Source: Acetomicrobium hydrogeniformans ATCC BAA-1850 (GTDB lineage: Bacteria; Synergistota; Synergistia; Synergistales; Acetomicrobiaceae). From it: 64,000 nucleotides of DNA. The stretch spans positions 1,560,001-1,624,000 of the forward strand of contig NZ_ACJX03000001.1 in the NCBI RefSeq assembly GCF_000160455.2, in the 5' to 3' direction. A program made the translations under genes and the position numbers. A model generated the notes under the pieces. It was not told the DNA's origin. It saw nothing but the letters and a program-made list of their open reading frames with translations, and did not search any database. Below, piece after piece: positions 6,255 through 13,082 of the stretch; positions within the stretch are counted from its first letter, which is position 1, and each line of letters opens with the position of its first letter.

Positions 6255-6284
6255 AACTTTTATGCAACCGGTTGCATAAAAGTT
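6255..6284. promoter_or_regulatory. 30-bp perfect palindromic operator overlapping the pyr promoter
   Basis: Bases 6255-6284 read identically on both strands; the centre is TATGCAACCGGTTGCATA (6261-6278). The core TGCAACCGGTTGCA fits the TGNAANCGNTNNCA pattern of LacI/GalR-family operators (PurR and CcpA sites are of this type), with the central CG typical of that family. Its right half contains the -35 hexamer TTGCAT (6272-6277), so a bound repressor would block RNA polymerase. The regulator is not in the window. The structure is seen directly; the family assignment is inference. Confidence 0.75.
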
Positions 6285-6300
6285 TGCCCTCTGATATACT
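6272..6300 (+). promoter_or_regulatory. Sigma-70-type promoter of the pyr operon
   Basis: TTGCAT (6272-6277) and TATACT (6295-6300) are separated by exactly 17 bases. Transcription should start near 6307, about 35 bases before the leader-peptide start and 150 before pyrR. The -35 lies inside the 30-bp palindrome. Confidence 0.75.
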
Positions 6301-6341
6301 CTCTCCTAAAGGAGATATCTTTTGCGGGGAGGTAAATTATT

Positions 6342-6416
6342 GTGAAACAAATACTTGATAATAAAGGCAGAGCCCAACGAAGGGGTTGTCTTAAAAAGTT
6401 TCGAGAGCTTCCATGA
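6342..6416 (+). CDS. Putative pyr leader peptide (24 codons)
   Basis: A strong Shine-Dalgarno GGGGAGGT (6326-6333) lies eight bases before a GTG that opens a 24-codon frame, M-K-Q-I-L-D-N-K-G-R and so on to R-E-L-P, with stop TGA at 6414-6416. The stop is the last three bases of the left arm of the attenuator hairpin (6404-6437). A ribosome that follows polymerase closely to the stop would therefore occlude the hairpin. This is the geometry of the E. coli pyrL-pyrBI leader, where low UTP slows polymerase and lets the ribosome prevent termination. About 8 of the 20 bases just before the hairpin are T. The peptide has no recognisable function, so its role is probably its translation itself. Confidence 0.7.
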   Translation: MKQILDNKGRAQRRGCLKKFRELP

Positions 6417-6443
6417 GGTCTTTTTCATGGAAGCTCTTTTTTT
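6404..6443 (+). terminator. Intrinsic attenuator in the pyrR leader
   Basis: AGAGCTTCCATGA (6404-6416) pairs perfectly over 13 bp with TCATGGAAGCTCT (6425-6437), with an 8-base loop and T-run 6437-6443. It lies directly before the pyrR Shine-Dalgarno (6444-6450). Its 5' arm contains the end and stop codon of the leader peptide, implying translation-coupled readthrough. Control by PyrR binding is an alternative or additional possibility. Confidence 0.85.
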
Positions 6444-6458
6444 AGGGAGGTGGCGAGA

Positions 6459-6998
6459 GTGAAAGTCAAGGCTGTAGTGATGGACGAGAAGGAAATGGAT
6501 CTTACGATAAGAAGGATGGCCCATGAAGTTTTGGAGAAACTTGGCGGCACTGACGAAGCAGTCCTGGTGGGGATCCAAAGAAGAGGGGTATATCTTTCCC
6601 ACAGGATCAGGGATGTCATTAAATCCTCGGGTTATAAGGAACTTCCCTGCGGACAGCTGGATATAACCTTTTACAGGGATGATCTTTCGTTAATGGCCGA
6701 TCATCCGATGGTGCACAGCACGACCATGCCCGTGGACATAACGGGCAAGGATATAGTGCTGGTTGACGATGTTCTTTTCACGGGAAGGACGGTGAGAGCT
6801 GCCCTTGATGCCTTGATGGATATGGGAAGACCGAGGAAGGTTTTGCTGGCCGTTTTAGTGGACCGTGGGCACAGAGAGCTTCCCATTCATCCCGATGTGG
6901 TAGGAAGGGTTGTTCCCACTTCAAGGGATGAAGTCGTAGAAGTTTACGTCAGGGAGCTCGACGACAAGGACGGCATAGTCATAGCGGAGAAGGAGTAG
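6459..6998 (+). CDS. pyrR: Bifunctional pyr operon regulator / uracil phosphoribosyltransferase PyrR
   Basis: PyrR senses UMP/PRPP and in Bacillus binds pyr mRNA to promote termination; many members also have uracil phosphoribosyltransferase activity. The PRPP-binding segment VLVDDVLFTGRT is clear, as are GIQRRGVYL, ITFYRDDL and VDRGHRELPI. GTG at 6459 is chosen because AGGGAGG (6444-6450) lies eight bases upstream; a GTG at 6450 overlaps that Shine-Dalgarno. The length of 179 residues is normal. It is the first gene of the pyr operon, as in Firmicutes, but here the leader also encodes a peptide ending in the attenuator. Confidence 0.94.
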   Translation: MKVKAVVMDEKEMDLTIRRMAHEVLEKLGGTDEAVLVGIQRRGVYLSHRIRDVIKSSGYKELPCGQLDITFYRDDLSLMADHPMVHSTTMPVDITGKDIVLVDDVLFTGRTVRAALDALMDMGRPRKVLLAVLVDRGHRELPIHPDVVGRVVPTSRDEVVEVYVRELDDKDGIVIAEKE

Positions 6999-7010: not shown

Positions 7011-7940
7011 ATGCCTTGGAAACACAGCCATCTGGTAGACGTAGACGTCTTTAGCGAAGACGACTTTTACGTCGTCTTGGAAGAGGCTTGTAAGATGGAA
7101 GAGGTCATGGAAAGGCCATTAAAAAAGGTCCCCGCTTTGAGGGGAAAGGTCGTTGCCAACTTATTTTTCGAGCCATCCACGCGAACCAGGACGTCTTTTG
7201 AGCTTGCGGAAAAATTCTTGAGCGCCGACGTGATAAACTGGTCCGCCTCGGGATCAAGCGTATCAAAGGGGGAGAGCCTTCAGGATACTGCCAAGACGAT
7301 CAAAGCAATGGGAGTGGATGCCGTTGTCGTTAGAAACAGGGAAGTCGGGACGCCGGAATATCTGATAAACAAGCTATTGGGAACGTGCATCATCAACGCA
7401 GGCGACGGAGCGAGGGCTCACCCCACTCAGGCTTTGCTCGATCTTTATTCCGCCTGGAGACATTTTGGAGATTTGAAGGGTCGCAAAATGGCGATAATTG
7501 GCGACATACTGCACAGCAGGGTAGCAAGGAGTGACATCCACGCCTTCTCGAAAATGGGAGTTCATGTGGTGGTTTCAGGCCCAAGGTCCTTGATCCCTCT
7601 TCACGTTTTCGATCTCGCCGAATACGAACCGGATCCCAAAAAGGCCGTAGAAGGCGCCGATATTGTATATGCCTTGAGGATTCAGCGCGAAAGGCAGGAG
7701 GAGGGTCTCTTTCCCAGCATCGATGAATATCACAATCGATGGGGCGTGAAGACAGAACTTCTGCGTTATGCCGAAAGAAATGCAATAGTGATGCATCCCG
7801 GCCCCATGAACAGAGGTGTCGAAATAGAAAGTTCTGTGGCTGACGGAAGCAGAAGTTTAGTGTTAGATCAGGTGAGAAGCGGTGTGGCCGTCAGGATGGC
7901 TCTACTTTTCCTGTATTTAGCCGGAGGTGCGGGCAGATGA
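7011..7940 (+). CDS. pyrB: Aspartate carbamoyltransferase catalytic subunit
   Basis: PyrB condenses carbamoyl phosphate and aspartate, the second step of UMP synthesis. The carbamoyl-phosphate loop FFEPSTRTRTSFE (STRTR 56-60), the SxxKGES loop and HPTQALLD are present. The length of 309 residues is usual for a catalytic chain. No pyrI regulatory chain follows, so it is probably the unregulated trimer type, with operon control at transcription. The stop overlaps the pyrC start (ATGA). Confidence 0.95.
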   Translation: MPWKHSHLVDVDVFSEDDFYVVLEEACKMEEVMERPLKKVPALRGKVVANLFFEPSTRTRTSFELAEKFLSADVINWSASGSSVSKGESLQDTAKTIKAMGVDAVVVRNREVGTPEYLINKLLGTCIINAGDGARAHPTQALLDLYSAWRHFGDLKGRKMAIIGDILHSRVARSDIHAFSKMGVHVVVSGPRSLIPLHVFDLAEYEPDPKKAVEGADIVYALRIQRERQEEGLFPSIDEYHNRWGVKTELLRYAERNAIVMHPGPMNRGVEIESSVADGSRSLVLDQVRSGVAVRMALLFLYLAGGAGR

Positions 7941-9250
7941 TTTGGTTGCGTAAAGTGTTCCTCTATGATGGAAGTAGTTTGAGAGATGGCAAATGGGATC
8001 TTCTCCTTGAGAAGGGCAGTGTGACGAAGTTGGTTCCTTCAGAAAGCAACAGCTTGCAAGAAGAGGATGTATTTTACGATCTTGAAGGCCTCGTGGCTTG
8101 TCCCGGTTTCGTCGATCTCCATGCCCATTTGAGGGATCCGGGCCAGACTTGGAGAGAGGATATCTATAGCGGTTCTCTTGCTGCCGCGGCAGGAGGTTTT
8201 ACCCATGTGGTTGCCATGCCTAACACCACTCCGGCAGTGGACGAACCTTCGATCGTCCGTTACGTTGCAGAAAAGGGGAGGGTTGCCGGGGGAGCAAGGG
8301 TGCTTCCGTCGGGTGCCGTGACGGTGAAAAGAGAGGGCAGGCGGATCACCGAGATGTTAGCAATGAAAGAAGAGGGGGCGGTGCTTTTTACCGACGACGG
8401 CTCTCCGGTGATTTCGGCTAAGGCCATGCGAATAGCCCTTTTATACCTCAAGGATGTAGGGGTGCCCCTCATGGAACATCCAGAAGAGTTAAGTCTTTCC
8501 GAAGGGGGGCAAATTAATGAAGGCAGAGTGAGTGCCCTTTGCGGTCTTAAGGGGATACCGCGAAGCTCCGAGATAATAGGAGCAGAAAGAGCGATAAGGC
8601 TGTGCGAGGAGACCTCCGGTCGTCTTCATCTGACCCACATAAGCACCAAAGAGGCTTTGGAGGCCATAAGGCGGGCCAAGGAACGGGGATTGTCAATTAC
8701 GTGCGATGTGACACCTCACCACCTTCTCTTTGACGAAGAGATGATATTGCATTCTGCTTTTTCCTCTTCCCTTAAGGTCAATCCTCCGTTGAGGAGCGGG
8801 GAGGATGTGGAGGCGCTTTGGCGTGGCCTGGAGGATGGGACGATCGATGCCATAGCAACCGATCACGCCCCCTATCACGTAGACGAAAAGGATGTTGTCT
8901 TTGAGGCTGCACCCTTTGGGATAGCTTCCCTTGAGTGCGCCGTGGCTGCAGTCATCGATAGATGGGATAGAAGGGGCAGGCCCTTTCCAAAGGAAAGGCT
9001 CTTCGAGCTTTTTTCGACGGGACCGGGAAGGGTAATCGGACTTGAGAGAAAACTGAAGCTCGGCTCGAAGGCCGACTTGACGATAATTGATTTGAACCTT
9101 GAAGGGAAAGTCGATGTGGCAAACTGGAAAAGCAAGGCGAGGATAACGCCATACGACGGCTTTACCTTTAAGGGATGGCCGGTATTGACCATCCTGGAAG
9201 GTAAAATAGTTTATAATCGTCTAAAAGAAGAGGTATGTCATGCATTGTAG
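7937..9250 (+). CDS. pyrC: Dihydroorotase (class I)
   Basis: PyrC cyclises carbamoyl-aspartate to dihydroorotate. Metal ligands His62 and His64 are in DLHAHLRDPGQ. Further sites are HLTHIST, CDVTPHHL and ATDHAPYHVDEK. The length of 437 residues fits the class I enzymes of Gram-positive type. It overlaps pyrB by four bases and pyrK by eleven. Confidence 0.95.
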   Translation: MIWLRKVFLYDGSSLRDGKWDLLLEKGSVTKLVPSESNSLQEEDVFYDLEGLVACPGFVDLHAHLRDPGQTWREDIYSGSLAAAAGGFTHVVAMPNTTPAVDEPSIVRYVAEKGRVAGGARVLPSGAVTVKREGRRITEMLAMKEEGAVLFTDDGSPVISAKAMRIALLYLKDVGVPLMEHPEELSLSEGGQINEGRVSALCGLKGIPRSSEIIGAERAIRLCEETSGRLHLTHISTKEALEAIRRAKERGLSITCDVTPHHLLFDEEMILHSAFSSSLKVNPPLRSGEDVEALWRGLEDGTIDAIATDHAPYHVDEKDVVFEAAPFGIASLECAVAAVIDRWDRRGRPFPKERLFELFSTGPGRVIGLERKLKLGSKADLTIIDLNLEGKVDVANWKSKARITPYDGFTFKGWPVLTILEGKIVYNRLKEEVCHAL

Positions 9251-10019
9251 CCGCGGACTGGAACTGGAAGGTTTTTTGATCGACAAGGCCTTTTTGGGCG
9301 GAGGCGTATATTTGTTGAGATTTGAGACGAAAGAACTTCTTCCCGAAATTTTGCCGGGACAATTTTTTATGCTAGGACCTCATCGATGGAAAAGCGACCC
9401 CTTTTTGCTCAGGCCCTTTGCCGTGGTCGATTGGTCGGAAAATGACGTCGAATTTTTGGTGAAGGTTGTGGGCAGAGGTACGAAAGATATCGTCTCTTGC
9501 GAAAGAGGCACCCCCTTTCGCCTTCGGGGACCCCTTGGAAACGGTGTCTTTACTGCCACAAGGGGAAGGTCTTTGGCGTTGGTCGCAGGAGGGATAGGAG
9601 TGGCGCCTTTGCTGTGCGCCTGGAAATTCCACTCCGATGTTGTAAGCAGCTTCGTCTTTGGCGTTTCAAACAGGGATTGGGCAGGCGTGGCAGATTGGGC
9701 AAGCAGTAAAGTCTCCGGTCTGACCGTGGCCTCCGACGACGGATCACTGGGTTATAAGGGAACTGCCCCGGACGTTTTAAAAAAAGAAGGGGATTTCATC
9801 GATGAGATATGGGCCTGTGGTCCTGTTCCCATGCTTAAGGCGGTATACGGGACATTTGGGGGAAAGTCTCTTATCATGGCGTCGCTTGAGTCGAGGATGG
9901 GTTGCGGCATCGGCGGGTGCCATTCCTGTGCAGTGAAAACGCAAAGGGGCATGCTTAAAGTGTGCCATGACGGCCCTGTTTTCGATCTTTCGGAGGTATT
10001 TTTGGATGAGCTTATCTGA
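9240..10019 (+). CDS. pyrK: Dihydroorotate dehydrogenase B electron-transfer subunit
   Basis: PyrK passes electrons from dihydroorotate oxidation in PyrDB to NAD+ through FAD and a [2Fe-2S] cluster. The FAD motif LRPFAV (58-63) and the nucleotide-binding VAGGIGVAPL (115-124) are present. The cluster cysteines are Cys222, Cys227, Cys230 and Cys242 in GCGIGGCHSCAVK and KVCHDGPVF. It overlaps pyrC and pyrD, so translation is probably coupled. Its presence shows that pyrimidine synthesis is NAD-linked rather than quinone- or fumarate-linked, which suits an anaerobe. Confidence 0.95.
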   Translation: MHCSRGLELEGFLIDKAFLGGGVYLLRFETKELLPEILPGQFFMLGPHRWKSDPFLLRPFAVVDWSENDVEFLVKVVGRGTKDIVSCERGTPFRLRGPLGNGVFTATRGRSLALVAGGIGVAPLLCAWKFHSDVVSSFVFGVSNRDWAGVADWASSKVSGLTVASDDGSLGYKGTAPDVLKKEGDFIDEIWACGPVPMLKAVYGTFGGKSLIMASLESRMGCGIGGCHSCAVKTQRGMLKVCHDGPVFDLSEVFLDELI

Positions 10020-10956
10020 CGTCTCGAAAAGATTACCCGATTTGAGCGTTTCCGTAGGCGGATTGACCCTTCCCTCCCCTTTGATAATAGCGTCGGGCCT
10101 TTGGCCTCATGATGCTTCCTTCTGGCAGGAGCCCTATAGTGAAGGCGTTGGAGCAATCTGCAGCAAAGGGTTGACCCGTCGCCCCAGGGCAGGCAACAGT
10201 GGCATCAGAATATGGGAAACTCCATCCGGAGTACTTAACAGCATAGGGCTTCAAAACAGGGGGGTAGAGGTCTTTATAAAAGAAGAGTTGCCCCATCTTT
10301 CAAAAAGCGGGATTCCCGTAATCGTCAACCTGGCCGTGGAGTCCCTTGAAGAGACGACAGAGAGCCTGGTCTTGCTCAAATCCGTAGAGAAGGACATAGC
10401 GGCCGTGGAATTAAACGTTTCCTGCCCTAACGTCGATTGCGGCGGTATGGCATGGGGAATGAGTGCGGAAGGTGTCTCGAGCGTTCTTATGGCGGCAAGA
10501 AAAGTTTGGGAAGGAAAGCTTTGGATTAAGCTCACGCCTCAGGCCTTCGATTTGCCGGCCGTCGGAAGGGCTGCCGAGGGTGGCGGTGCTGATGCCTTGG
10601 TGGTATCCAATACTTGGCTTGGAATGGCCATCGACGTGGAAGCCAAAAAGCCCGTATTCGACAGGATATTTGCGGGCCTGTCCGGCCCCGCCGTATTTCC
10701 TCTTGCATTGCGATGTCTTTACGAAGTGGCAGGGTCGGTCTCCATACCTGTGATAGGTTGTGGAGGCGTTTGCAGCGACGAAGATGTGTTGGCCATGCTT
10801 CTTGCCGGGGCTGCCGCCGTAGAGATTGGCAGCATGCTGATGCATGACCTGAAATGCATATCTAATATCCATGAAAGTTTGACTAAAAGGATGGCCCTTT
10901 GGGGCGTCGGTTCCGTGGCGGATATAATAGGAAAGGGAAGAGGTGATCACTTTTGA
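10006..10956 (+). CDS. pyrD: Dihydroorotate dehydrogenase catalytic subunit (class IB)
   Basis: This FMN subunit oxidises dihydroorotate to orotate. The active-site loop LNVSCPNVDCGGMAWG carries the class I cysteine base. FMN phosphate-site segments GGLSGPA-like AGLSGPAVFPLA, IGCGGV and LLAGAAAVEIGS follow. Start 10006 is chosen from GGAGGT (9992-9997), eight bases upstream; earlier in-frame ATGs fall deep inside pyrK. The length of 316 residues is normal. The substrate loop reads SNTWLGM where NTLMGM-like sequences are common, a minor deviation. Confidence 0.94.
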   Translation: MSLSDVSKRLPDLSVSVGGLTLPSPLIIASGLWPHDASFWQEPYSEGVGAICSKGLTRRPRAGNSGIRIWETPSGVLNSIGLQNRGVEVFIKEELPHLSKSGIPVIVNLAVESLEETTESLVLLKSVEKDIAAVELNVSCPNVDCGGMAWGMSAEGVSSVLMAARKVWEGKLWIKLTPQAFDLPAVGRAAEGGGADALVVSNTWLGMAIDVEAKKPVFDRIFAGLSGPAVFPLALRCLYEVAGSVSIPVIGCGGVCSDEDVLAMLLAGAAAVEIGSMLMHDLKCISNIHESLTKRMALWGVGSVADIIGKGRGDHF

Positions 10957-11639
10957 GCGAAATAGTACTGGCTTTGGACGTAAAGGACCTGACTTCTGCA
11001 GAAAAAATCCTGGAGATGCTTGGGCCCGATTTAAAATACGTAAAAATAGGGCCGCGGCTTTTTTGTCAGGGAGGTAGAGAGTTCATACTTTCTGTTGGGA
11101 AGAACTGGAAAGTATTTTTGGACATTAAGTTGCACGATATACCCAACACAGTCAAGGATGCCGTTTCAGCCATAGCCGAAATGGGAATCTTTGGGCTTAC
11201 CCTCCACGTCGCCGGAGGAAAGCGGATGTTGTGTGAGGCGGTGAAGGGGCGGAACGAAGCGAACCCCGATATGAAATTATTTGGCGTTACGGTCCTGACC
11301 AGCATTAACGAAGAAGAGTGGAAAGCCGTCTCTCCGGGATGCGGCATCGAAGATGCGATCGAAATGAGGACCAAACTGGCCGACGAGGCCGGTATAGACG
11401 GTGTCGTCTGCTCTCCTAGGGATTTGGAATCGATAAAGAAAGTTTCAGACAAGCTTCTTACTTTGGTGCCCGGCGTTAGGCCTGAGGGTACTTCGAAAGA
11501 CGATCAGGCCAGGATTATGACTCCCGGTCAAGCCAAGAAGAAGGGGGCCGACTTTATAGTGATAGGCAGGCCAATCCTCCTGGCTTCGGACCCCCTAGAG
11601 GCGCTTACTGCAATCAAAGGGGAGGTGGCGTGTTCGTGA
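10953..11639 (+). CDS. pyrF: Orotidine 5'-phosphate decarboxylase
   Basis: PyrF decarboxylates OMP to UMP. The catalytic Asp-Lys-Asp array is in VFLDIKLHDIPNTVKDA, and LALDV, VCSPRDLE and TLVPGVRPEG complete the barrel. The start TTG overlaps the pyrD stop. The length of 228 residues is typical of the short family. Confidence 0.95.
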   Translation: MSEIVLALDVKDLTSAEKILEMLGPDLKYVKIGPRLFCQGGREFILSVGKNWKVFLDIKLHDIPNTVKDAVSAIAEMGIFGLTLHVAGGKRMLCEAVKGRNEANPDMKLFGVTVLTSINEEEWKAVSPGCGIEDAIEMRTKLADEAGIDGVVCSPRDLESIKKVSDKLLTLVPGVRPEGTSKDDQARIMTPGQAKKKGADFIVIGRPILLASDPLEALTAIKGEVACS

Positions 11640-12223
11640 GTGGCGTAAATGACGGAGATCTCCTGGAAAAGATGCTTGCCGACAGCGGTGCTTTGCTGGA
11701 AGGCCATTTCCTTCTGTCCTCCGGCCTTCATAGCTGTAACTATTTACAATGCGCTTTGCTTTTGCGGTTTCCGCACTATGCAGCTTACGTCGGCGAAAGG
11801 TTGGCGAACTTAATAAGACCCAGCGCCCCCGATATCATAGCCAGCCCCGCGCTGGGGGGCATAATAATAGGCCATGAGGTGGCCAGGGCCTTAGATGTCC
11901 CCTTTATATTCTGCGAGAGAGAAGAGGGTAAGATGAGGTTGCGTCGGTTTCCCGCACCCGAGGGGATGAGATTTGCCGTCATAGAGGATGTGGTGACGAC
12001 GGGAGGATCGATAAAGGAAGTTGGAGAAGCATTAGAATCACTTGGCGGTAAATGGGTTGCCTCGGGGTGTATAGTGGACAGAAGCACGGAAAACACAGGT
12101 CTTAAAGGGGAGCTGTTTAGCCTTGCCAAGAAGGTCTTTCCCGTCTATAAACCGGAGGAATGTCCACTTTGTAAAAAAGGGCTTCCCCTAGTGAAGCCCG
12201 GCAGCAAAAAACAAAGGATATAA
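11630..12223 (+). CDS. pyrE: Orotate phosphoribosyltransferase
   Basis: PyrE transfers ribose phosphate from PRPP to orotate. The PRPP motif FAVIEDVVTTGGS is present, along with SPALGGIIIGHEVAR. The C-terminal tail contains CPLCKKGLP, a CxxC pair seen in the longer bacterial PyrE family. GTG 11630 follows AGGGGAGG closely and overlaps pyrF by ten bases. It is the last enzymatic gene of the operon; a start codon follows four bases after its stop. Confidence 0.94.
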   Translation: MFVSGVNDGDLLEKMLADSGALLEGHFLLSSGLHSCNYLQCALLLRFPHYAAYVGERLANLIRPSAPDIIASPALGGIIIGHEVARALDVPFIFCEREEGKMRLRRFPAPEGMRFAVIEDVVTTGGSIKEVGEALESLGGKWVASGCIVDRSTENTGLKGELFSLAKKVFPVYKPEECPLCKKGLPLVKPGSKKQRI

Positions 12224-12227
12224 AATA

Positions 12228-13082
12228 ATGAGCTACGAAAAGGGCGGTCTTTTTGCGATGGCTGTATTTGTGAAAAAAACATTTCTTGTCCTCTTTCTTC
12301 TTGTCCTGGTTTTTTATCCCTCGGGGGCCATGGCGGTCGAGGGTAAGATTGCCACGGTTGTGGTAACACCTCCCGAAGTTGCTGTCCTTGTCAGATTTGT
12401 AGGAGGTCCGGTAGTAGAGGTGCACTCGCTTTTCGACTGGGCCGAAGACGGCTCCCTGACCAGGCGCCTGAGGAGTTGGCCGAAAGATGCTTACCTGATT
12501 GCCTTGACGCCGGGAGAGAGGGGGATACCGAGGGGCGAAAAAAGGGTGAAGTACATGTACGACTTTTTGCCCTACGATAGAGATGTCTTCGATAAATATT
12601 TCTTCGACCCGGCCACCATTTCTTTTATGTCAAGTCGTATATTGGTTTTGCTCACTGAGATAGAGCCGTCCATGTACGACTACTTTCAAAGACGTTTGGC
12701 GGAATTTCAAAGCAGGTTGGACAGCGTGATCGGGGTGGGGAGGGAAATAATGAACGGCCTTTTCATCCTCGATTTATCAGGAAGAATGGAGTTTTTACTG
12801 AAAGCCTCTGGTGCCGAAACGTTGAGACCGCCCGTAAATTGTTTTGATGATTGGAGAAGGGGCGAAGGTATCGTTGAACTGGAAAAATATATAGAATACG
12901 CAAAAGCAAGAGGAGGCCTCGTCGTGGCCGACGTATGGTCTCCTCCCTTGATAAGAGAAACCCTTTCAAGTTTATCATGCGCCATCCTATTGCCGACGCC
13001 AAAGGTCGATGAGATGTGGACCACCTATTTGCACGATATCTACCTCACCATTTGGAACCGATTTAAAGCGGTTTATGGCTAA
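12228..13082 (+). CDS. Exported ZnuA/TroA-like protein without metal-binding histidines
   Basis: A signal peptide (residues about 11-36, hydrophobic core FLVLFLLVLVFYPSG, cleavage after AMA) predicts export. The mature part resembles metal ABC-transporter binding proteins: VVVTPPEVAVLVRFVGGPVVEVHSL matches the first lobe, and FFDPATISFMSSRILVLLTEIEPSMYDYFQ resembles the conserved segment around the second ligand plus helix. The expected His in the MPPGxDPHxFxP region is absent (LFDWAEDGSLTRRL), and no His-rich loop is seen. No permease or ATPase gene adjoins it. It follows pyrE by four bases, and its stop overlaps the selD stop on the other strand. A second possible start is 12258. The family call is moderate and the function unknown. 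Confidence 0.6.
   Translation: MSYEKGGLFAMAVFVKKTFLVLFLLVLVFYPSGAMAVEGKIATVVVTPPEVAVLVRFVGGPVVEVHSLFDWAEDGSLTRRLRSWPKDAYLIALTPGERGIPRGEKRVKYMYDFLPYDRDVFDKYFFDPATISFMSSRILVLLTEIEPSMYDYFQRRLAEFQSRLDSVIGVGREIMNGLFILDLSGRMEFLLKASGAETLRPPVNCFDDWRRGEGIVELEKYIEYAKARGGLVVADVWSPPLIRETLSSLSCAILLPTPKVDEMWTTYLHDIYLTIWNRFKAVYG

Follow-up and report, generated by a model that had tools for sequence, protein, structure and literature searches.

What decides whether transcription continues into a pyrimidine operon that begins with pyrR, when the leader before pyrR holds a short reading frame that runs into a terminator? The question comes from a 64,000-nucleotide stretch (the window) of the genome of Acetomicrobium hydrogeniformans (G000), whose genus belongs to the Synergistota (NCBI). 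The initial annotation had read the genes behind this leader as a UMP operon, and NCBIfam matches showed that it was right. On the forward strand pyrR (6450..6998; NF003549 above its cut-off) is followed by pyrB, pyrC, a pyrK-like gene, pyrD, pyrF and pyrE (7011..12223), the pyrK-like name being the best NCBIfam match at a score below that model's cut-off. GTG 6459, which has AGGGAGGTGG 5 nt upstream and aligns by eye with the ATG of a related locus (L006), appears a likelier start of pyrR than GTG 6450. The gene upstream of the leader is fabF (NCBIfam), and directly after pyrE lies an open reading frame of 284 amino acids (12228-13082) with no NCBIfam match.

The leader reading frame (6342..6416, forward strand) starts with GTG at 6342-6344, has 24 sense codons and ends with TGA at 6414-6416; as read from the sequence it would encode VKQILDNKGRAQRRGCLKKFRELP*. 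Its Shine-Dalgarno (SD) sequence, GGGGAGGT (6326..6333, forward strand), has an anti-SD duplex energy of -12.3 kcal/mol. The intrinsic terminator (6404..6443, forward strand) consists of 13 perfect Watson-Crick pairs between AGAGCTTCCATGA (6404-6416) and TCATGGAAGCTCT (6425-6437), or 16 pairs when flanking and G-U pairs are included, with a T tract to 6443. The left arm starts just 62 nt past the leader start codon and its end coincides with the stop codon, which ends 13 nt into the arm. Frame, strong SD and 13-bp hairpin with TGA closing the left arm are all as first annotated. Folding of the leader is more stable than that of every one of 200 dinucleotide shuffles (z -4.6), a difference due mainly to the terminator. 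Among 1000 dinucleotide shuffles of 6305-6403, 17 had an equally strong SD with a start codon, and four also had an open frame of 15 or more codons running into the arm.

We think it probable that this arrangement is a translation-coupled attenuator, in which a ribosome, rather than an RNA antiterminator, keeps the terminator unfolded. RNA polymerase would start near 6307, the predicted transcript start, and a ribosome would load at the strong SD. A ribosome close behind the polymerase would enter the left arm, or halt at the TGA covering arm and loop, and the hairpin could then not fold, so that pyrR to pyrE would be transcribed. With a lagging ribosome, or none loaded, the hairpin would form and transcription would end before pyrR. 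This effect of the ribosome is inferred from the geometry together with published work on E. coli terminators. There, termination fell from about 90% to less than 10% when the distance from the stop codon to the terminator downstream was shortened from 28 to 5 bp (PMC4824070). According to the same paper, without a polymerase pause a ribosome is unlikely to reach the polymerase in the first 100 bp, and the 62-nt distance in the window would therefore call for such a pause. For pyrL, tight coupling is described as preventing its terminator in a second paper (PMC5021804).

The window leader appears to work like pyrL-pyrBI of E. coli and Salmonella in its geometry. In both, the leader gene overlaps an intrinsic terminator with pyrimidine genes downstream, and translation into the hairpin should prevent termination. 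They differ in that the window leader has 24 codons with its stop in the left arm, whereas the pyrBI leader gene of 135 bp contains its terminator (PMC4824070), and in that the window operon starts with pyrR, its promoter carries a LacI-type palindrome and the U-rich tract is weak in the genus.

An operon led by pyrR would be expected to carry an RNA site for PyrR, and the initial annotation had expected one here. A pattern search of the window found neither the PyrR binding loop, a hairpin with a UCCNGNGAGG loop, nor such a loop covering or adjoining the leader SD, and the window scored 21.8 bits against RF00515 (cut-off 54), most of the score falling on the terminator. Several relatives do have a loop in or beside the leader SD. 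These came from a Synergistota sample of 185 genomes, 118 of which have PyrR at E<=1e-30; five of the 118 (G099, G143, G144, G168 and G176) lay outside the upstream comparison. The first set comprised 79 pyrR upstream regions: 44 of leader type, 12 canonical, including one (G114) counted as canonical by eye as its loop misses the pattern, and 23 excluded (family f4, second pyrR copies, loci without a terminator, a truncated contig and others). The leader type was found in 21 of the 37 pyrR-bearing genera of this first sample.

The upstream sequences suggest that the Synergistota have three attenuator designs on one operon, and that the window has the loop-free, pyrL-like one. The 12 canonical loci have the PyrR binding loop and a terminator, with neither operator nor evidence of a leader peptide. 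Nine loci (in f8, g3, g12 and f9), with three more in a second set, combine loop and leader. In 9/9 the 3' strand of the loop contains the leader SD or is immediately followed by it, and in all nine the start codon lies 19-26 nt past the loop core; two of the nine (G080 and G009) failed to adopt the canonical fold. The remaining 35 loci, in 16 genera and including the window, have a leader without a recognised loop; G005, G067 and G161 were assigned to this class despite a loop-pattern match within their terminators. RF00515 hits at E<=0.05 were obtained for 5/5 canonical, 5/8 loop-plus-leader and 0/7 loop-free loci, 2/20 scoring above the gathering score. In the loop-plus-leader lineages access of the ribosome to the leader is probably gated by UMP-loaded PyrR, which would block leader translation, so that termination proceeds.

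The loop pattern within terminator hairpins is a separate observation. It was seen in G005, of the same species group as the window, in G067 (L038) and in G161 (L172), and the window has no such match. In G067 and G161 the pattern letters sit at the tip of the hairpin, and in these two the terminator itself might be a target of PyrR.

Does the leader frame recur more often than chance allows? Between the predicted transcript start and the terminator of each locus we chose the start codon whose anti-SD duplex was strongest, a rule formulated after the first set had been read, and counted a frame as reaching the terminator when it came within 12 nt of the left arm, with the expectation taken from shuffles of the interval. 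The frame reached the terminator in 41 of the 44 leader loci of the first set, against 24.3 expected. Averaged per genus this was 20.3/21 against 11.55 expected (P 2e-5), with 15.3/16 genera against 8.12 for the loop-free loci alone (P 2e-4) and 5/5 against 3.43 for the loop-bearing leader loci alone (P 0.14), all three P values being optimistic as the genera share ancestry. The other frames were open in 5.8/21 (+1) and 11.3/21 (+2) genera. Applied to the 12 canonical loci the rule performed at chance level (5.75/8 genera, 6.13 expected), and the median SD duplex was -11.3 kcal/mol in the leader loci compared with -5.7 in these canonical loci. Where the frame reached the terminator (41 loci), its stop codon ended no more than 6 nt short of the arm, or further downstream. 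The rule failed in G001, G073 and G095, in each of which a start a few bases downstream opens into the hairpin; in G001 the ATG picked by the rule leads to a stop after two codons and an ATG 5 nt later is open through the hairpin. Among the excluded loci, the four with a finder-listed hairpin (G096, both copies of G089, and G098) all reached under the rule, and their SDs were weak (-5.6 to +0.5). Their exclusion therefore did not push up the number of reaching frames. In the operator-bearing G015 and G079 a terminator was absent by both finders.

The second set of 40 further loci, for which terminators were located by an automatic finder, gave 27 evaluable loci. The other 13, with no terminator by this finder or no start, include the operator-bearing, loop-free G181, G182, G183 and G128. 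All ten operator-bearing loop-free loci with a detected terminator reached it (4.44 expected); they represent seven genera, two of them new. The loop-bearing f8 and f9 loci reached in 3/3 (2.13 expected), and the canonical-type loci in 12/12 with 10.6 expected, which is chance. Two loop-free loci without an operator stand outside the 10/10: G150 reached, its SD being weak, and G156 failed to reach. The recurrence of frame and SD in 21 genera and the second set supports the proposal in the initial annotation that the leader is placed for a ribosome to block the terminator directly, much as in pyrL-pyrBI, at a pyrR-led operon in a distant phylum.

What is kept within the genus appears to be the entry of the ribosome into the hairpin, and neither the stop position nor the peptide. 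Among the relatives in Acetomicrobium, the 24-codon frame is retained in G005 and G002, where it differs by substitutions but by no indels and still stops in the left arm. The frames of G001 and G004 are different ones that extend across the entire hairpin. A stop inside the left arm is a property of three of the five Acetomicrobium leaders rather than the feature that is conserved. The bias towards synonymous change that had been predicted also failed to appear. Eleven within-genus groups were aligned, of which eight had equal-length pairs; those that differ in length (f5g29b, f5g9 and g3) were left uncounted. The ten equal-length pairs held 13 synonymous and 55 nonsynonymous codon changes, and the changes fell 30, 32 and 30 on the three codon positions. 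As nonsynonymous changes dominate, the peptide sequence is not conserved, and with synonymous bias absent the case for the frame rests on its openness and its SD. One of the relatives shows a probable assembly artefact: in L009 (contig C42 of the metagenome-assembled genome G002) a run of N is followed inside pyrR by TGTGTATAAGAGACAG, which resembles a Nextera transposon end.

The lack of synonymous bias would also suit a frame that is open by chance and overlies an ordinary attenuator or a constitutive terminator, as would the fact that the window's frame remains open in 0.37 of shuffles. The recurrence in 20.3/21 genera and again in the second set, the strong SDs and the 4/1000 obtained for the window make such a chance frame improbable. 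We give still less weight to attenuation of the classical amino-acid type, with regulatory codons and an antiterminator. The trp- and his-type leaders likewise have a short leader peptide upstream of a terminator, but by eye the window frame has no run of regulatory codons and the leader peptides share no run of a single codon type. The window frame also overlaps its terminator; amino-acid leaders, in the account of PMC4824070, stop over 20 bp short of theirs. This explanation seems to us very improbable.

How might the three designs be related? With the Bacillus PyrR attenuator (RF00515) the Synergistota share a pyr operon with a leader terminator, and the binding loop itself is present in the 12 canonical loci; the window differs in that the loop was not found there and a ribosome would replace the antiterminator. 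An antiterminator test based on duplex energy between the arm and upstream sequence put 0/12 canonical loci below z -2 and did not separate canonical from leader loci. When the strand following the loop was paired with the left arm, 12/12 canonical loci lay on the stronger side of the shuffle median, two with p<=0.05, compared with 3/9 loop-bearing leader loci, one with p<=0.05. Screening with a strict DNA pattern that combined loop and SD gave a match in 1/294 genomes and was uninformative. It is possible, at a little under an even chance, that the designs form a natural series on one operon, in which PyrR would mask an antiterminator strand in the first and the leader SD in the second, and a pyrL-like leader would stand without a PyrR site in the third, with PyrR mainly an enzyme there. 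The post-loop strand that pairs with the terminator in the first would then be the ribosome-binding site in the second. If the series is true, attenuator logic has been rewired by a few base changes beside one RNA hairpin, and pyrL-type control arose or persisted independently of enterobacteria.

The PyrR proteins were compared as well. In a tree of 80 rows, made by a quick search that returned long-branch warnings and without G002 and G028, one branch (SH-aLRT 98) sets apart the 12 canonical PyrRs and three others, and the leader-type PyrRs join with most of the others (SH-aLRT 84). PyrRs of the loop-plus-leader lineages (f9, g3 and f8) are dispersed through this second group, so that three changes are needed. 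The tree is consistent with gating that changed repeatedly while the leader was kept, and as it is unrooted gives no direction to that change. R15, H22 and K152 bind RNA in B. subtilis PyrR. With second copies, G098 and the partial G099 also left out of the residue counts, H22 is kept in 19/20 rows with a loop compared with 25/52 without, and K152 in 20/20 compared with 27/52. R146 is Arg in 12/12 canonical PyrRs, which all lie to one side of a branch. The association of H22 and K152 with the loop has the expected direction, but comprises two independent pairs on the starred branches (five on all branches), a number at which significance is unattainable. The leader set makes it testable whether PyrRs without RNA sites have lost RNA binding.

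These proteins bear on whether PyrR still controls the Acetomicrobium leader through a diverged RNA site, in which case the sensor would be UMP on PyrR and not UTP at the polymerase. The retention of pyrR as the first gene and the existence of loop-gated relatives are consistent with this, as is the conservation of R19, H22 and R141 in the window's family (f1), and the loop pattern in the terminators of G005, G067 and G161 raises its odds slightly. On the other side are the missing loop match in the window, the low RF00515 score that falls mostly on the terminator, and the RF00515 hits among canonical and loop-bearing leader loci with none among the loop-free. The four f1 rows also have L at R15, which is R in the other 68 rows (the partial G099, outside these counts, has V), and R at K152. 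We regard a diverged site as unlikely, while still giving it some weight.

For the proposed ribosome-dependent terminator of the window's genus, the likeliest signal would be a slowing of transcription when UTP is low, on the pyrBI model, and a LacI-type repressor at the promoter would add a second control; we propose this combination tentatively. The sequences give weak support to UTP sensing by the loop-free leaders. Of the four bases, T alone is enriched at p<0.05 in the last 25 nt before the arm (12/16 loop-free genera, Wilcoxon p=0.013 with no correction for the number of bases), and in Acetomicrobium the T fraction is 0.25 before the arm compared with 0.16 earlier in the frame. This enrichment is compatible with UTP-sensitive pausing, but weak.

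The second control would act at the promoter. A predicted promoter, TTGCAT-17-TATACT (6272..6300, forward strand), has identical hexamers and spacing in 5/5 Acetomicrobium loci; a scan for consensus promoters did not pick it up, and it stands as a prediction. Its -35 element is overlapped by a perfect palindrome, TGCAACCGGTTGCA (6263..6276), a candidate LacI-type operator and the only exact copy in the genome. Operator-like sites with up to two mismatches were found at 31/35 loop-free leader loci, 7/9 loop-plus-leader loci, 10/23 others and 0/12 canonical loci, and in 2/1580 shuffled regions. The palindrome over the promoter suggests a second control, and the LacI-type protein is a candidate pyrimidine repressor across the Synergistota. 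Within the genome, a copy with one mismatch sits, by eye, inside a moaA-like frame, and sites with up to two mismatches were no more frequent than for the reversed control (9 and 7, closer ones included). Second pyrR copies are present in G037, G050, G026 and G089; among the copies in these genomes L056, L068 and L069 are without an operator, and both G089 copies (L057 and L078) carry an operator-like site by eye.

Could the repressor do all the pyrimidine sensing, leaving leader and terminator to report only general translation capacity? The position of the unique palindrome over the -35 would suit this, as would the presence of exactly one LacI-HTH gene in each of six Acetomicrobium genomes and of a LacI-HTH gene in the genomes of 30/31 operator-bearing loop-free leader loci. 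But a LacI gene was not detected in the genomes of 2/7 operator-bearing loop-plus-leader loci, and the loop-gated leaders of the phylum suggest that pyrimidines can govern the translation of a leader. Sensing by the repressor alone therefore seems to us about as unlikely as a diverged PyrR site. The single LacI-HTH gene of the window's genome (L099) is unlinked to the pyr operon.

A ribosome standing in for an antiterminator at a pyrR-led operon has reportedly been proposed before. Van de Casteele et al. (1997) are said to have described an attenuator of this kind before pyrR-pyrB-bbc-pyrC of Thermus ZO5, in which PyrR was expected to act. That system reportedly shares with the window a pyrR-led operon in a distant phylum and a ribosome in the antiterminator's place, and differs in that the window has no recognised PyrR site; the relatives that bear both loop and leader (f8, g3, g12 and f9) match it better. 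Among open-licence papers we recognised none on Synergistota pyr leaders. The main text of a survey that covered RNA motifs, pyrR among them, across 255 genomes does not contain 'Synergist' (PMC3766115), and a 2010 paper states that, ermC aside, no leader-peptide systems had been shown outside the Proteobacteria and Actinobacteria before its own case in the Firmicutes (PMC2965389). If our reading is true, ribosome-blocked termination of pyrimidine genes is widespread in the Synergistota, which would hold, side by side, intermediates for protein-RNA and ribosome-RNA switches replacing each other.

Outside the phylum, five of 14 named loci (L103-L106 and L116) were inspected at a glance and the leader frame was not recognised in them; in L106, from Streptococcus, the binding loop is visible by eye. 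Within the Synergistota, 0/11 loci of family f4 had a leader terminator by the one finder used. In its genus g18 (L030, L031, L039, L040, L041 and L071) the operator and promoter lie directly before pyrR, and a C-rich run at the transcript start could, by eye, pair with the pyrR Shine-Dalgarno sequence. This run is reminiscent of E. coli pyrC, which is controlled by start-site switching. In upstream regions of f2, f3 and f4 (for example L038, L058 and L039) an AGTTCAG-like sequence lies, by eye, at the predicted transcript starts, just before the Shine-Dalgarno sequence.
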